Positions 39,957 through 47,979 of a stretch of DNA of 64,000 nucleotides are shown one piece after another. The stretch spans positions 1,674,001-1,738,000 of the forward strand of contig NZ_CP042301.2 of assembly GCF_007922615.2 (NCBI RefSeq), written 5' to 3'. The translations under genes and the position numbers were made by a program. How positions within the stretch are numbered: the first letter of the stretch is position 1; the number at the start of each line of letters is the position of its first letter. The notes below the pieces were generated by a model. The model was given only the letters and a program-made list of their open reading frames with translations. It ran no database searches and had not been told where the DNA came from. This stretch comes from Nitratireductor mangrovi. Lineage in GTDB: Bacteria; Pseudomonadota; Alphaproteobacteria; Rhizobiales; Rhizobiaceae.

Positions 39957-40131
39957 ACGTGGTAGAAGCCGGTCGCAACCGGCCCGGCGCGTTTAGCAAA
40001 TCGCCTGTCAGGAAACAAGTGGCGTGAGCGGCCAAAATCGGCGCCGCGCCGGGGTCTTCACGGCAACGGCGAAAGCCCCCCGCTTTACCTCGGCACCGTT
40101 TGTCGCCATATGTCGCGTCAGGGAGTCCGCC

Positions 40132-40875: not shown

Positions 40876-42633
40876 ATGACACGATCAATCATCGCCGCCC
40901 TGTTCGGCACGACGTTGCTTCTCGGCGCGCCGTCGGCGGCCCAGCAGGCTACCGACGCGGTGGCACCCGAAGCCGCAACCGGCATCACGGAGCGGCAGGC
41001 CGTCCTTGCCCGCACCCGCATGGTGGCGGCGGCAAACCCGATCGCCGCCGAGGCGGGCCTTGCGGTCCTGCGCAACGGCGGCAGCGCCGCGGATGCGCTG
41101 GTAGTGGTCCAGACCGTGCTCGGCCTCGTCGAACCTCAGTCCTCCGGCATCGGCGGCGGCGCCTTCCTGGTCTGGTATGACGCAGAGAGCGGCAAGATCA
41201 CCACGTTTGACGGCCGCGAGACGGCACCTTCGGCCGCAACGCCGGAGCTCTTCCTCGATGGCGACGGCGCGCCGCTGAAATTTTTCGACGCGGTGATGGG
41301 CGGCCGCTCGGTCGGGGTTCCCGGTGTCGTGCGGCTGATGGAAAAGGTTCATGCGCGTTTCGGCGACAAGCCCTGGGCCGAATTGTTCGAACCGGCGGCG
41401 ACCTTGGCCGAAACCGGCTTCGCCGTCTCTCCTCGCCTGGAGGCGATGATCGTCTACGACGCTGCCCGGCTCTCCAGCCAGCCCGCGACCCGCGCCTACT
41501 TTTTCCATGCCGACGGCACCCCGCTCAAGGCGGGCGAGACCCTGACAAATCCCGCCTACGCCAAGAGCCTGCGCGCCATCGCCCAGGGCGGCGCCGATGC
41601 CTTCTACGAGGAAGGACTCGCGGAGGCGATCGTGACGGCCGTCAACGGCCACCCCGACAATCCCGGAGCGCTCTCCATGGCCGACATGGCGGCCTACGAA
41701 GCCAGGGAGCGCGATGCGGTCTGCGTCGGCTATCGCGGCAACGACATTTGCGGCATGGGCCCGCCCTCCTCCGGTGCGCTGGCGGTCGGACAGACGCTCG
41801 GCATGCTGGAGGGCTTCGACCTTGCCGCACTCGGCCCCGATGATCCGGAAGCGTGGCGGCTGATCGGCGACGCTTCCCGCCTCGCCTTCGCCGATCGCGG
41901 GCTTTACGTCGCCGACAGCGACTTCGTTCGACTGCCGGCCGGCCTGCTCGACCGCGATTACCTTGCTTCACGCGGCGAACTGCTGCGCCGCCCGACCGCG
42001 CTTGGCGAAGACGAGGTACGGCCGGGCGAGCCGCCCTGGGACAAGGCCGAGCATCGCATCGAGGGCCTGAACCTTGAAATGCCGTCGACGACGCACTTCG
42101 TCATCGTCGATGACCGGGGCAACATCGCTTCAATGACCAGTTCGATCGAAAACGCCTTCGGCGCCCGGCTGATGGTCGCCGGCTTCCTGCTCAACAATCA
42201 GCTCACCGATTTTTCGTTCCGGCCAGAAGCAGATGGCGCAGCAGTGGCGAACCGGGTCGAGCCGGGCAAGAGGCCGCGCTCGTCAATGTCGCCGACGATC
42301 GTTCTGCGCGACGGCCGTCCCGTTTACGCGCTTGGATCGCCCGGCGGCAGCAACATCATTCCCTATGTGACCAAGACGCTGATCGGGCTGATCGACTGGC
42401 GAATGGACATGCAGCAGGCGATATCCTTGCCGCACCTCACCAACCGTTTCGGAACCTATCAGCTCGAAGCCGGCACGAAGGCCGAGCGGCTGGCCGACGA
42501 CCTGACCGCGCTGGGCTTCGAGGTCGAGGTGAGTGACCTCAATTCCGGACTGCATGGCGTCGCCTTGCGCGCCGACGGTACGCTCGAAGGTGGCGCCGAC
42601 CCGCGCCGTGAGGGAATGGCCGTCGGCGACTGA
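40876..42633 (+). CDS. ggt: Gamma-glutamyltransferase
   Basis: A 585-residue periplasmic Ntn-hydrolase that cleaves glutathione and other gamma-glutamyl compounds. Signal peptide MTRSIIAALFGTTLLLGAPS with cleavage near SAAQ. The self-cleavage and nucleophile site is PSTTHFVIVD, Thr405, and the oxyanion and binding loop PRSSMSPTIVL follows. The large subunit would be residues about 24-404. ATG 40876 abuts the lipB stop, with AAGGAG 9 bases upstream. The last 350 bases are overlapped on the other strand by the M50 gene frame. Confidence 0.95.
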   Translation: MTRSIIAALFGTTLLLGAPSAAQQATDAVAPEAATGITERQAVLARTRMVAAANPIAAEAGLAVLRNGGSAADALVVVQTVLGLVEPQSSGIGGGAFLVWYDAESGKITTFDGRETAPSAATPELFLDGDGAPLKFFDAVMGGRSVGVPGVVRLMEKVHARFGDKPWAELFEPAATLAETGFAVSPRLEAMIVYDAARLSSQPATRAYFFHADGTPLKAGETLTNPAYAKSLRAIAQGGADAFYEEGLAEAIVTAVNGHPDNPGALSMADMAAYEARERDAVCVGYRGNDICGMGPPSSGALAVGQTLGMLEGFDLAALGPDDPEAWRLIGDASRLAFADRGLYVADSDFVRLPAGLLDRDYLASRGELLRRPTALGEDEVRPGEPPWDKAEHRIEGLNLEMPSTTHFVIVDDRGNIASMTSSIENAFGARLMVAGFLLNNQLTDFSFRPEADGAAVANRVEPGKRPRSSMSPTIVLRDGRPVYALGSPGGSNIIPYVTKTLIGLIDWRMDMQQAISLPHLTNRFGTYQLEAGTKAERLADDLTALGFEVEVSDLNSGLHGVALRADGTLEGGADPRREGMAVGD

Positions 42634-43929
42634 GGCCGCGAGGAGCGCGGGCCGCGTCTCGCGCGCTGCCTGGAAGCGTTCATATTTCTCCCAGGCCCAG
42701 AGGAAGGCGGCGGCGTGGATGAGGAAAGTCGCGACCAGAGCGGCGGCCATGGCGGCGCTCTCCAGGGCCGCAACGGGCTTGAGTTCGTGGCGGGGTTTCA
42801 CCGACCGCCCCGCCGTTATGAAACTCAGCAACGCCAGCACGGCGCCGCCGGCAAGCACCGCGCGCGGCGCGAAACCGGCAATCAGCCCGACCGCGAGGAA
42901 GGCAGCCAGAAGAGCAAATGCCGCCAGCGCCAGCGCCAGCTTGCCGCGGCAGATCTGGCGCAGTACCTGGCCGCCATCGAAACGCCACATCGGAACCAGA
43001 TTGGCCAGGTTGAAGATCGCCACGAAGGCGGCAAGTACCGCCGCGACGGCAGCGGCGTAGCGCATGCCGGCAGCACCCGCTGCCTCGCTCGCAAGCATTG
43101 CCGCCGGCACCAGCAGGGCCGAGAAGCCGGCGCCCATCAGCGCCACGAAGGCAACCTCGAAGCGGCTGTCATACGGTCGCCCGCCGATCGCCACCCCGCC
43201 GAGGATCGGAATGAAGATCATCCGCACGCGCCGGTGCCCCATCACCCGAAAGGCGGCGAGATGACCGAGCTCGTGCAATGCCACCGCCGCGGTCAGGCAG
43301 GCCGACAGCACCAGACCCTGAACCGACAGGCCGAAGAACGGCCACAGCAGCAGCGTGGAAAGCGCCGCGAAGCCGAACTGCGTCGCCGGATGTTCGAACC
43401 ACCCGCTTTGCGGTCGCCGCCCCGTTTCCAGCCACCGCTTCAGGCCGGCAGTGCGGCGGCGCAGCCGAAAGAAGCGAAAGCCCAGGAAGGCAAGCCCGCG
43501 ATAGCTGTCGCTCTGACGAATGGTGACGCGGGTCATGCCGCCCAACCGGTCCAGCCGCGTCTCTTCGCGGAAATGTCGCCAGAAGGTTCCATCGAGCGAA
43601 CTGTCGTTCTCGACCCGCACGGCAAAGCACTCGCCTGCCGTGACATCGTCAAGTCGCAGCGTGCGCTCGATGAAGCTGCCGTCGCGGCCTTCATGGCCTG
43701 TCGTCACCAGAACACGCAAGGGCTCGCCGGGCAGCCGACAGGCCGAGCCGATCTCTCCCGACCAGGACGCGTCATCGCCAAGCGGCCACAGCGCGTTCCA
43801 TGCCTTCGCCTGGCTGCAATCGATACTCACCGACGCCACCAGCGTGCGCCGCCCAAGCGGCACGGCCAGCAGCAGGAAGATCAGGCCGAGATTGGCGCCG
43901 ACAACGATGGCGATCATGAACGCGGACAA
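42283..43929 (-). CDS. Site-2-protease-like M50 membrane protein with antisense tail
   Basis: A 548-residue frame. Residues about 30-160 form a polyketide-cyclase/SRPBCC-like domain (SVSIDCSQAKAWNALWPLGD). Membrane helices follow with HELGH at 219-223 and NLVPMWRFDGGQVL near 310-323, whose Asp318 completes the zinc site of M50 proteases. TTG 43929 follows GGAGCG and is preferred; ATG 43917 is possible. Residues 433-548 lie entirely antisense to ggt and look like non-protein sequence, so a normal end near residue 430 seems to have been lost. A proteolytic role is inferred from the motifs. Confidence 0.8.
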   Translation of the reverse strand: MSAFMIAIVVGANLGLIFLLLAVPLGRRTLVASVSIDCSQAKAWNALWPLGDDASWSGEIGSACRLPGEPLRVLVTTGHEGRDGSFIERTLRLDDVTAGECFAVRVENDSSLDGTFWRHFREETRLDRLGGMTRVTIRQSDSYRGLAFLGFRFFRLRRRTAGLKRWLETGRRPQSGWFEHPATQFGFAALSTLLLWPFFGLSVQGLVLSACLTAAVALHELGHLAAFRVMGHRRVRMIFIPILGGVAIGGRPYDSRFEVAFVALMGAGFSALLVPAAMLASEAAGAAGMRYAAAVAAVLAAFVAIFNLANLVPMWRFDGGQVLRQICRGKLALALAAFALLAAFLAVGLIAGFAPRAVLAGGAVLALLSFITAGRSVKPRHELKPVAALESAAMAAALVATFLIHAAAFLWAWEKYERFQAARETRPALLAASVADGHSLTARVGATFERTVGAQGDAMQSGIEVTHLDLEAQRGQVVGQPLGLRAGFELIGSETVGEVRQGYRLLHVHSPVDQPDQRLGHIGNDVAAAGRSKRVNGTAVAQNDRRRH

Positions 43930-44020: not shown

Positions 44021-44107
44021 TCAATAGGCGCCGATCCACATGGCCAGCGAGACGATGAACACGCTCATGGAAACCAGGGCGGCGACATCCTGCAGCATCT
44101 CGGTCAT
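44021..44107 (-). CDS. Small membrane peptide under LexA boxes (SidA-like SOS division inhibitor candidate)
   Basis: A 28-codon frame, too short for usual gene calling, starts at ATG 44107 after GGAGAGACC and ends at TGA 44021. It encodes a short acidic N-terminus (MTEMLQDVAALVSMSV) and a hydrophobic stretch (FIVSLAMWIGAY), a single membrane helix. Three GTTC blocks spaced 11 bases lie 24-49 bases upstream. In Caulobacter, SidA, a 29-residue inner-membrane SOS peptide, blocks division through FtsW/FtsN. Length, topology and LexA control match; sequence identity to SidA cannot be judged here. Confidence 0.7.
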   Translation of the reverse strand: MTEMLQDVAALVSMSVFIVSLAMWIGAY

Positions 44108-44130
44108 GATGGTCTCTCCGATTTCGTTAT

Positions 44131-44156
44131 GTTCCTATCTTGTTCTATTTATGTTC
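44131..44156 (-). promoter_or_regulatory. Triple LexA box (GTTC-N7-GTTC-N7-GTTC)
   Basis: GTTC occurs at 44131-44134, 44142-44145 and 44153-44156, each pair separated by exactly seven bases. The alphaproteobacterial LexA box is GTTC-N7-GTTC, so two overlapping boxes are present. On the minus strand they lie just before the peptide start, over or next to a possible promoter (TTGCGA with TAAATA 18 bases on). Confidence 0.8.
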
Positions 44157-44298
44157 TCACCGCAAGGCATCGCAAACGCGAACATGCCGCCTGCTGACAT
44201 TTGAGGTAAATCGTTCGTTAATGGCGAACGTCGCTGTCGCGGAGCCGGCTGCGGGGGCGCCGTGCGTGCCCTGGGCGGCTACGCGAGGACGCCCAGCT

Positions 44299-44985
44299 TC
44301 AGAAGCTGGTGATCTTGCCGTCCGCCAGCGTCACGCGCCGGTCCATGCGCTGCGCGAGGTCATGGTTGTGGGTGGCGATCAGCGCGGCGAGGCCGGAATG
44401 CCGCACCAGCGCCTCCAGCGCATCGAAGACATAGGAGGCCGTCACCGGGTCGAGATTGCCGGTCGGCTCGTCCGCCAGAAGCACCAGCGGCGCATTGGCG
44501 ACCGCGCGAGCGATGGCGACACGCTGCTGTTCGCCGCCCGAGAGTTCGGACGGTCGGTGCTGAGCACGCTTGCCGATCTTCATGTAGTCGAGCAGTTGCA
44601 TGGCCCGGTCGCTGGCTTCCTTGACGCTCAACCCGTGAACGAGTTGCGGCATCATGATGTTTTCCAGTGCCGAGAATTCCGGCAGCAGATGATGAAACTG
44701 GTAGACAAAGCCGATGTCGTTGCGCCGGATGGCGGTGCGTTCGTCGTCGCCGAGCCGGCCACAGGCGCGGCCGTTGAGGATCACGTCGCCACCGTCCGGG
44801 CGTTCGAGCAGGCCGGCGGTGTGCAAGAGAGTCGACTTGCCGGCACCCGACGGCGCCACCAGCGCGACCATCTCGCCAGCCCTCAACACAAACTCGGCGC
44901 CGTTCAGGATGACGAGCGTCTTAGACCCCTGCTGGTAGCGCCGCTCGACGCCCTTCAGCACCAGCACGCCTTCGGCATCCATCAT
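44299..44985 (-). CDS. lolD: Lipoprotein-releasing system ATPase LolD
   Basis: A 228-residue ATPase driving release of outer-membrane lipoproteins to LolA. Walker [10 protein letters not shown] is near residue 43, with signature LSGGEQQR and Walker [14 protein letters not shown], the LolD/FtsE subgroup form. ATG 44985 follows GAGGTACGA and overlaps the lolC stop by four bases. Unlike many relatives, dnaE does not follow; the LexA-controlled peptide does. Confidence 0.94.
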
Positions 44986-46265
44986 TCGTACCTCAGGGCT
45001 TCGACGGGATCGAGCCGCGCGGCACGCCAGGCGGGGAAGATGGTGGCGATGAAGGACAGGACCAGCGCCATCACGATCACTGAAATGGTCTCACTGGCAT
45101 CCATCTTCGCCGGTAGCCGGCTTAGGAAATAGAGTTCCGGATCGAACAGCGTTGCACCCGACAGCCATGAAAAGAACTGACGGATCGATTCAACGTTGAG
45201 GCACACAAGCAGGCCAAGCACGACGCCGGCGACGGTGCCGGTGATGCCGATCGCCGCGCCCGTCATCATGAAGATGCGCATCACCGCAGAGCGCGTCGCG
45301 CCCATGGTGCGCAGGATCGCGATGTCGTGGCCCTTGTCCTTCACCAGCATGATGAGCCCGGAGATGATATTCAGAGCGGCGACCAGCACGATCAGCGTCA
45401 GGATCATGAACATGACGTTGCGCTCGACCTCGAGCGCGGAAAAGAAGGTCTGGTTGCGCTGGCGCCAGTCGGTCAGAAAGAGCTGGCGCCGCGCCGCTGT
45501 CTCGATCGGCTCCTTCAACTCATCAATGGCATCCGGATTGTCGACAAAGATCTCGATCGTCTGCGCACGGCCCTCGAAGTTGAAATAGAGTTGCGCCTCC
45601 GAGAGCGCGAGGAAGGCGATGGTCGCGTCATATTCCGACATGCCGACCTGGTAGATCGCGGTGACCGGATAAGCCTTCTGCCGCGCCACGGTGCCGAACG
45701 GCGTCACGTCACCCTCCGGCGACGTCAGCGTGATGGCATCGCCGACGGCGAGCCCCAGCGTCTCGGCCATGCGCACGCCGATCACCACGCCCTCGCCCGC
45801 GTCGAAGCCGTCGAGTGTTCCGTTGCGGATATTGCCGGCCACCAGTTCCATCTTGCGCAGGTCTTCCTCGCGCAGTCCGCGGACGAGCGCTCCGGTGCCC
45901 CGGCCGACACTGCCGGAAGCCAGCACCTGGCCTTCCACCAGCGGGATGGCGTAGTGCACCCCGTCGACCTCGTTGATGCGCGCGGCAACCTCCGCATAGT
46001 CATCGAGCGGACGATCGATCGGCTGTACGATCAGGTGCCCGTTGACCCCGAGGATGCGGGTCAGAAGTTCGGCGCGAAACCCGTTCATCACCGCCATCAC
46101 GATGATCAGCGTGGCCACGCCCAGCATGATGCCGATGAAGGAGATCGACGCGATGACGGAGATTACCGTCTCCTTGCGCCTGGATCGCAGGTAACGCCAG
46201 GCGACCATGCGCTCGAAGGTCGAAAACGGCCCGGCGCCGGCGCGGATGTTCGCCGTTTCGCTCAC
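44982..46265 (-). CDS. lolC: Lipoprotein-releasing system permease LolC/LolE
   Basis: A 427-residue inner-membrane protein with an N-terminal helix after a short lead ([20 protein letters not shown]), a periplasmic MacB-like domain (about residues 55-270) and three C-terminal helices with the FtsX fold. A single LolC/E-type permease beside LolD suggests a homodimeric alphaproteobacterial LolF-like arrangement. Start GTG 46265 overlaps the proS stop by four bases (GTGA); the upstream frame is within proS. Confidence 0.93.
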
Positions 46266-47590
46266 GCACCGGCTCCGGTAGCCGCAAGCACCTCGGCGAT
46301 CGGCTTGTTGTGGCGCTCGCCGGTGGCGCGACGCTTGACCTCGACCTCGCCGGCTGCTGCCCCGCGCGGCCCCACGATCACCTGCCAGGGAATGCCTATC
46401 AGATCCATGGTGGCGAACTTCGCGCCGGCCCGCTGGTCCGTGTCGTCGTAAAGCACGCTGACGCCCGATTTCTCGTAGGCCTGCTCCAACTCGGCACAGA
46501 TGCGATCGCACTCGGCATCGCCGGGCTTCATGTTGATCAGCCCGATATCGAACGGTGCCACGCTTTCCGGCCAGATGATGCCGGCCTCGTCATGGCTTGC
46601 CTCGATGATGGCGGCGATCAGCCGGCTCGGGCCGATCCCGTATGAGCCCATCGAGACGAAATGCTCCTTGCCGTCTGGGCCGGTCACCGAGGCGCCCATC
46701 GGCTTGGAGTACTTTTCTCCGAAATGGAAGATGTGCCCGACCTCGATGCCGCGCGCCGACAGGCGCTCGCCCTCGGCGATCGCGTCCCAGGCCTTGTCGT
46801 CGTGCATGTCGTCGGTCGCGGCGTATGGCGTCGTCCAGTTGCGTACGATGCCGCCGATCTCCGCGTCATCGGTGAAGTCGACATCCTCCCCCGGCACGTC
46901 GAGGGACAGGAAGTCCTTGTGGCAGAAAACCTGGCTTTCGCCGGTATCGGCCAGGATGATGAATTCGTGGGAGAGATCGCCACCGATCGGCCCGGTCTCG
47001 GCGCGCATCGGAATTGCCTTCAATCCCATGCGCGTGAACGTGCGCAGATAGGAGACGAACATGCGGTTGTAGGCCGCTCTGGCGCCTTCATAGTCGAGGT
47101 CGAAGGAATAGGCGTCCTTCATCAGGAACTCGCGCGAACGCATGACGCCGAAGCGCGGGCGCACCTCGTCGCGGTACTTCCACTGGATATGATAGAGGTT
47201 GAGCGGCAGGTCCTTGTAGCTCTTCACGTAGGACCTGAAGATGTCGGTCACCATCTCCTCATTGGTGGGACCGTAGAGCATGTCGCGTTCGCCGCGATCC
47301 TGAATGCGAAGCATCTCCTTGCCGTAATCGTCATAGCGGCCGCTTTCGCGCCAGAGCTCGGCGGACTGGATCGTCGGCATCAGGATCTCCAGCGCACCGG
47401 CGCGGTTCTGCTCCTCGCGGATGATGGCGCACACCTTGTCGAGCACCCGCTTGCCGAGCGGCAGCCAGGAGAACGAACCCTGCCCCTGCTGGCGGATCAT
47501 GCCGGCCCTGAGCATGAGCCGGTGCGAGACGATCTCGGCCTCGCGCGGATTCTCTTTGAGGATGGGCAGGAAATAACGCGACGCTCGCAT
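46262..47590 (-). CDS. proS: Prolyl-tRNA synthetase, short alphaproteobacterial form
   Basis: A 442-residue class II synthetase. Motif 2 is [20 protein letters not shown], followed by [10 protein letters not shown]; motif 3 region is [18 protein letters not shown]. It lacks the insertion editing domain present in the longer bacterial form, as usual for rhizobia. ATG 47590 follows GGAAGCC. The upstream open frame is intergenic. It leads the proS-lolC-lolD operon. Confidence 0.95.
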
Positions 47591-47799: not shown

Positions 47800-47979
47800 G
47801 CGATGACCGTTAGGCTAGTGTTCCCGCGCATAAAGAGGGAGTGGAAATCGAAACCGCTCTCCTGCGCGGTCAAAGTCTTGGGAGGATGCGATCTAGGCGC
47901 GATAATCCGCTGCCGCCGGACACCGGAAACAGATCGGACGCGTGATAAAACTGCAAGGCTTCGGCCTTGCATTTTTTTT
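47800..47979 (+). ncRNA. Candidate small RNA between proS and DUF1467
   Basis: The gap 47591-48029 has no protein gene. On the plus strand about 180 bases end in a textbook terminator with eight Ts although no plus-strand gene precedes it. The stretch contains an internal hairpin (ACCGC, loop, GCGGT near 47855-47875) and runs from a poorly defined promoter. It resembles no RNA family known to me. The 5' end is a guess. Confidence 0.3.
47953..47979. terminator. Intrinsic terminator, possibly two-way
   Basis: GCAAGGC-TTCG-GCCTTGC (47953-47970) followed by A and eight Ts is a strong plus-strand terminator. On the minus strand the same hairpin is followed by AGTTTTATC, so it may also end the minus-strand transcript of DUF1467, whose stop is 60 bases upstream. 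Confidence 0.8.

Follow-up and report, generated by a model that had tools for sequence, protein, structure and literature searches.

A 28-codon gene behind a predicted LexA operator in Rhizobiaceae, a candidate ortholog of the Caulobacter division inhibitor SidA

In Nitratireductor mangrovi (NZ_CP042301.2), three regularly spaced GTTC blocks precede a reading frame of only 28 codons. The question raised by this locus is whether so short a frame is a gene and, if so, whether it encodes an SOS-induced inhibitor of cell division comparable to SidA of Caulobacter crescentus. SidA is reported to be an inner-membrane protein of 29 residues, induced by the SOS response and interacting with FtsW and FtsN (PMC4211646). 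It bears the tag CCNA_02004 (PMC10769358), and a Caulobacter lexA mutant is reported to filament because of sidA, as a lexA mutant lacking sidA does not (PMC12700426). The whole stretch of 64,000 nucleotides that was analysed is referred to as the window, and the features of the locus are collected in Table 1.

Table 1 Features of the peptide locus, in window coordinates
Feature	Position	Strand	Basis
SidA-like membrane peptide, 28-codon CDS MTEMLQDVAALVSMSVFIVSLAMWIGAY	44021..44107 (44107-44021 as read)	-	conserved frame, dN/dS 0.137
Ribosome-binding site GGAGAG	44114..44119 (44119-44114 as read)	-	sequence
LexA operator (predicted): two overlapping GAACA-N6-GAACA sites, three half-sites, 11-nt steps	44131..44156	-	genome motif count
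-10 element CAAGAT (predicted), 17 nt after -35, overlaps second LexA half-site	44137..44142	-	inference from relatives
-35 element TTGCGG (predicted)	44160..44165	-	relatives aligned on box
lolD, ABC transporter ATPase, upstream neighbour marking the locus	44299..44985	-	ORF list and domain match
lolC/E permease (MacB_PCD, FtsX)	44982..46274	-	ORF list and domain match
Peptidase M50 domain gene, downstream neighbour in the window's lineage	42283..43917	-	domain match

A sequence-only reading of the window had described three GTTC blocks at exact 11-base steps, followed by a ribosome-binding site and a 28-codon frame with one hydrophobic helix. All of these elements are in place. GTTC occurs at 44131, 44142 and 44153, which reads GAACATAAATAGAACAAGATAGGAAC on the minus strand. 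In the order of that strand, TTGCGG-N3-GAACATAAATAGAACAAGATAGGAACATAAC is followed by GGAGAG and then by the frame, which opens with ATG and comprises 28 codons and a stop. A single hydrophobic helix is predicted in the peptide, with a best 19-residue Kyte-Doolittle mean of 2.19.

The gene directly upstream of the frame is lolD. The same reading had placed the locus at a position in which dnaE adjoins lolD in many relatives, which holds for the relatives but not for the window: the downstream slot is occupied by the start of dnaE in 38 of 113 distinct relatives and by an M50-peptidase gene in the window, where dnaE is not the next gene. The start of DnaE has one match in the genome (E ≤ 1e-20), about 422 kb from the peptide locus. 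Between positions 40000 and 48000, the only Rfam match is ar9 (RF02343), an alphaproteobacterial small RNA at 47830-47978 on the plus strand (125 bits). A distant blastn search of a plasmid collection with the 381-bp region of the locus gave no match.

Conservation of the frame was examined in the family. The 28-residue query alone found matches in 30 of 61 genomes at E ≤ 1, the weakest of which are parts of long frames. A family profile built from 25 members found matches at E ≤ 0.1 in 223 of 247 genomes, belonging to 92 of the 99 genera of the family, the weakest of which may be due to chance. From 123 loci taken for comparison, four without a match and one without a start codon were set aside, and the remaining 118 yielded 113 distinct frames, including one from outside the family (L020). 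The frame is exactly 28 residues long in 108 of these and is preceded by a Shine-Dalgarno-like motif in 110. The sequence-only reading had named conservation of the small frame, with its upstream box and next to lolD, as the thing to look for, and it was found: an exact GAAC-N7-GAAC lies within 120 nt upstream in 107 of the 113 distinct frames, and 72 of the 113 distinct relatives have a same-strand lolD upstream (both this count and that of the 38 with a dnaE start motif downstream refer to the fetched flank).

Asp7 and Phe17 are invariant in all 108 frames of 28 codons, and 94 distinct 28-residue variants of the peptide were collected. In 45 disjoint pairs, differences at codon positions 1, 2 and 3 numbered 141, 28 and 349, and the dN/dS of the sense frame was 0.137. 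The constant length, the conserved residues and this ratio argue that the 28-codon frame is a real gene under purifying selection, beyond a conservation of the boxes alone. The outcome that would have spoken against the sequence-only reading, boxes conserved without the frame or changes breaking it, is not what the relatives display.

Twenty-four family genomes have no profile match; among the 20 listed, ten have a size of 2.0 Mb or less. At the lolD locus of three out of 16 such genomes (G022, G137 and G067), a diverged frame of 28 residues with D7 and F17 was found behind an exact box, and no such frame was found next to lolD in the other 13, one of which offered just 166 nt to examine. A lexA match (E ≤ 1e-40) is present in 28 of the 32 family genomes checked. 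None of the four genomes without lexA has a peptide match; of the 20 genomes that have no peptide match, however, 16 have lexA, so that the presence of lexA does not predict that of the peptide. Four small family genomes of 1.0-1.5 Mb (G009, G098, G127 and G192) have neither a lexA match at this threshold nor a match to the peptide profile. In two genomes of one genus (G225, locus L355, and G102, locus L356), the dnaE motif follows lolD at a distance of 108-154 nt with neither an exact box nor a peptide in between, and lexA is present; the absence of the peptide there looks like a loss. Two strong profile matches occur in each of G011, G019, G083, G135 and G197, on different contigs (C27 and C4 in G019) or far apart on the same one (G083). 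The peptide gene may be duplicated in this part of the family.

The half-sites upstream of the frame gain significance only in an extended form. A GTTC-N7-GTTC pair was found twice in the window versus 1.81 expected, which is not significant, and the triple half-site alone was found three times in the 4.86-Mb genome versus once for the reversed control. Neither a pair nor a triple of half-sites by itself is distinguishable from chance. GAACA-N6-GAACA, in contrast to the single site of the reversed control, has 16 sites in the 4.86-Mb genome, two of which are the overlapping pair of this locus. Other sites have recA, ssb or lexA downstream, or dinB in divergent orientation, these names having been assigned by NCBIfam on 90-residue starts. 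A further frame near such a site, which no NCBIfam model matched, presumably resembles imuA. The excess, combined with the sites at lexA, recA, ssb and dinB, argues that GAACA-N6-GAACA is the LexA operator form of this genome. Several sites lack a recognised SOS gene (L297, L305, L306 and L309-L312), and one of these lies 138 nt upstream of an RsmE-like methyltransferase. Two sites near 4.83 Mb adjoin frames that are similar to each other and that we take to be ParB-like.

The promoter was deduced from relatives aligned on the box. TTGAC is found upstream of the box in 75 of 106 aligned relatives, starting 9 nt before it in 56 of the 75, and a CAWAAT consensus lies at the same offset as the predicted -10 element of the window, with a spacer of 17 nt. 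The window's own -35 and -10 elements are weak, and a generic scan of the locus for sigma-70 promoters and terminators reported nothing. In 87 of the 106 aligned relatives, the distance from the start of the box to the ATG is 47-53 nt, and 26 of the 106 have the same 11-nt double box as the window. The first LexA half-site falls inside the -35/-10 spacer and the second overlaps the -10 element, a layout that would be expected for repression. Transcription would start near 44130, leaving a leader of about 20 nt.

The locus of Caulobacter was reached by a contig scan with CtrA, followed by a LolD search in 17 named genomes. In four Caulobacter genomes, a 29-residue peptide is encoded directly upstream of dnaE and downstream of lolD with one gene in between. 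The order is lolC, lolD, a reverse-strand gene of 318-331 residues, two boxes, the 29-residue peptide and dnaE. From its start, the reverse-strand gene (L229-L232) is presumably nucleoside-hydrolase-like. The boxes are imperfect, with one mismatch each. The peptide has the same sequence in two of the four genomes and close variants in the other two; its predicted 19-residue hydropathy is 1.93, versus 2.19 for the window peptide. We take dnaE to be the neighbouring tag of sidA in NA1000. The 29-residue ORF is taken to be SidA on the grounds of its size, boxes and helix.

The comparison with SidA that the sequence-only reading had suggested gave an ungapped alignment. The window peptide and that of C. 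hibisci have M1, A10, L11, V12, S13 and F17 in common and D versus E at position 7; only six of 28 positions are identical, Met1 included. Alignment of the rhizobial and Caulobacterales alignments with hhalign gave an E-value of 1.4e-5 (for one comparison) and a probability of 79.8, over 19 ungapped columns from Met1. Residue shuffles with five Caulobacterales peptides gave p values of 0.004-0.046 when full and 0.014-0.065 in blocks keeping the hydropathy outline, which are modest, and the best register was at zero offset for all five. In the seven Caulobacterales loci that hold the peptide, the rhizobial profile ranked the peptide ORF first among 268-355 small ORFs each, with E-values of 0.004-0.24; in one locus (L236), what ranks first is this ORF read from an internal start. 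Scores of the rhizobial profile in Caulobacterales are low, and an unrelated frame comes close in L230 (9.6 vs 7.3 bits). The Caulobacter peptide as a query misses the Asticcacaulis peptide and the lolD-linked Robiginitomaculum peptide, so that these links rest on box, position and size. In an alignment of 20 peptides, most members have an acid about ten residues before a Phe or another large hydrophobic residue.

The sequence match to SidA is weak when taken alone, and suggestive. When it is joined to the neighbourhood, the operator, the size and the helix, orthology to SidA is the simplest account. The window peptide is very probably the rhizobial ortholog of SidA, which would act as an SOS-induced inhibitor of FtsW/I/N. 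The proposal that it is the rhizobial functional counterpart of SidA is supported, and the lolD/dnaE locus, the boxes, the size and the weak ungapped match point further, to common descent.

The wider spread of the peptide was estimated by several scans. An exact box with a small helix-bearing frame was found within 1.5 kb after lolD in nine of the 17 named genomes (Oryzicola, Aurantimonas, Microvirga, Afipia, Rhodopseudomonas, Devosia, Cucumibacter, Phenylobacterium and Robiginitomaculum). Six more came from longer stretches: the boxes are exact in Brevundimonas poindexterae and imperfect in Asticcacaulis and the four Caulobacter genomes. Brevundimonas bacteroides has a match away from lolD (E 2.4e-4), and Methylobacterium gave none. 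A profile search at the level of the order matched 53 of 247 genomes at E ≤ 0.1, including 12 of the window's own family. Some weak matches fall inside frames of 200-1367 residues and seem to be due to chance; only matches with a box were relied on, and L075-L081 were left out of the readout.

Among 65 further genomes, mostly across the class but including two of the same order (G287 and G320), 14 have the box and the peptide on the coding strand at lolD or dnaE, and none has them on the opposite strand. In the other 51, the lolD or dnaE flank that was scanned contains no passing combination of the two; some of these genomes may carry diverged forms, and in G287 and G518 an exact box is present but no frame passes. 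A set of 65 lolD loci, 49 of them common to the scan across the class, contains 15 with box and peptide. The opposite strand and 20 shuffles gave none; when one box mismatch is allowed, the opposite strand yields one of the 65. Exact boxes occur in 11 of 30 dnaE flanks on the coding strand and in four of 30 on the other. The peptide filter, which requires an acid followed at ten positions by a hydrophobic residue, was designed with members already in view; the empty opposite strand and shuffles therefore control for chance and are no independent prediction. The scans suggest a family spread over several orders, and presence throughout the class goes beyond what they support. A division brake common to rhizobia, Caulobacter and a range of relatives seems to emerge from these comparisons.

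The account of the peptide as SidA has to be weighed against other ways of explaining the locus. The frame could be incidental, if what is conserved is a LexA promoter for a small RNA or for the next gene, which is dnaE in many relatives. The box is indeed highly conserved, a distance of 165-430 nt often separates the peptide stop from the dnaE motif, and an antisense frame is interrupted by a stop in just 13 of 108 sequences. The sense frame is nevertheless the one under constraint, with its dN/dS of 0.137, its 28 codons in 108 of 113 cases and its invariant D7 and F17, whereas the two other sense frames contain stops in 97 and 42 of 108 sequences. Moreover, the gene downstream is a different one in the window, and the transcript does not fold better than shuffled sequences (z +1.39). 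As the sole explanation, an incidental frame has a negligible probability and is already refuted, although read-through into dnaE could still occur.

The two other alternatives accept the peptide and dispute its action. It could be a toxin like TisB or DinQ, induced by the SOS response, that forms pores or depolarises the membrane and slows growth by collapsing the proton gradient without binding the divisome. Its size class, its one hydrophobic helix and its LexA operator would suit such a toxin. Type I toxins, however, are patchy in distribution, whereas most genomes of the family carry the peptide, which is under purifying selection and has two invariant residues. Furthermore, tisB has a long regulated leader, for which the deduced leader of only about 20 nt would leave no room; none of the antisense RNA families described in Rfam is found between 40000 and 48000, although an undescribed one may be present, and the sequence link to SidA also argues against a toxin of this kind. 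This remains improbable despite the precedent of DinQ, reported as an SOS-regulated toxic single-helix peptide (PMC3567139). Alternatively, the peptide could descend from the SidA family and have acquired another target in Rhizobiaceae, for instance an enzyme in the membrane that serves polar growth or the envelope, in which case the SOS response would not act on FtsW/I/N. Rhizobia grow at the pole, and the head and the C-terminal part do differ from those of the Caulobacter peptide, the acid/Phe register being mainly what is common. Against such a change, an acid near position 7 and a Phe near position 17 are found again in different orders, the machinery of division is conserved, and nothing in the sequences appears to point to another target. 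A changed target is likewise considered improbable. The preferred reading is a SidA ortholog that acts on the divisome.

The working of such an ortholog can be sketched from the observed elements, which are the conserved frame, the operator form found at lexA and recA, the conserved neighbourhood and the sequence link to the Caulobacter peptide. In an undamaged cell, the promoter would be kept off by LexA bound to the two overlapping sites, which span the spacer and the -10 element. Upon DNA damage, RecA would trigger the cleavage of LexA, and a transcript with a short leader of about 20 nt would be produced and translated. As a single helix carrying Phe17, preceded by a short head that ends in Asp7, the peptide would insert into the inner membrane and would hold the FtsW/FtsI/FtsN complex inactive so that division does not proceed until the damage is repaired. 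LexA binding, induction, insertion in the membrane, the action on FtsW and the arrest of division are all inferred from homology.

The supposition that the peptide is unannotated owing to its size fits the state of the databases. No NCBIfam model matches any member, and a single match, named 'hypothetical protein', was returned from a set of 5.8 billion proteins by one query with a 41-residue version. Two Pfam matches, each to a single member (E 0.05 and 0.097), were taken as chance. The SidA family would have remained unseen because its length falls under annotation limits. Among the matches listed by a literature search, in which subscription journals are poorly covered, there was neither a SidA outside Caulobacter nor a rhizobial SOS division inhibitor, and term counts in the main text of a Ribo-seq paper on S. 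meliloti found no SOS, LexA, dnaE or lolD.

Rather than a peculiarity of Caulobacter, SidA is likely to be an ancient checkpoint peptide that Hyphomicrobiales, Caulobacterales and some neighbouring lineages inherited at an ancestral lolD-sidA-dnaE locus and that lies below the length limits of annotation. In this reading, rhizobia and their relatives would use it as their default brake on division during the SOS response, and the acid-x9-Phe pattern would mark its contact with FtsW/I/N. If the peptide is SidA, the division checkpoint of Caulobacter becomes a feature common to Hyphomicrobiales and Caulobacterales, and the 94 variants constitute a set of a minimal divisome inhibitor in which the two fixed positions suggest a contact with the target. 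More generally, shortness can keep an entire gene family out of protein sets.

Several known systems resemble the window peptide to different degrees. With SidA it has in common a length of 28-29 residues, one hydrophobic helix, LexA-type boxes before the gene and the lolD/dnaE neighbourhood, the last of these having been seen in Caulobacter here and lying outside the published definition of SidA. The acid at position 7, ALVS at 10-13 and Phe17 are in register, the sequence compared being that of the four Caulobacter genomes, which are other than that of C. crescentus. In contrast, the head of the window peptide is without a basic residue, its tryptophan is W24 where the Caulobacter peptide has W19, its operator is double and overlapping with an 11-nt step where the imperfect boxes of Caulobacter are 18 nt apart, and dnaE is not adjacent in the window's genome. 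YneA of Bacillus and SosA of Staphylococcus are also described as SOS-induced division inhibitors, and YneA is reported to interact with FtsW. Compared by description alone, they differ in being longer proteins of Gram-positive bacteria with other domains. TisB of Escherichia coli is an SOS-regulated single-helix toxin that acts on the membrane itself and is controlled by an antisense RNA. DinQ of the same species is reported as an SOS-regulated toxic single-helix peptide with the same site of action and type of control (PMC3567139). The window peptide resembles both by its single helix and its LexA operator, whereas their action on the membrane itself under antisense RNA control sets them apart. 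DidA of Caulobacter crescentus is reported, like SidA, as a small single-helix membrane inhibitor of FtsW/I/N that is induced by DNA damage, but it has 71 residues, is induced by DriD instead of the SOS response, and binds FtsN (PMC4211646).
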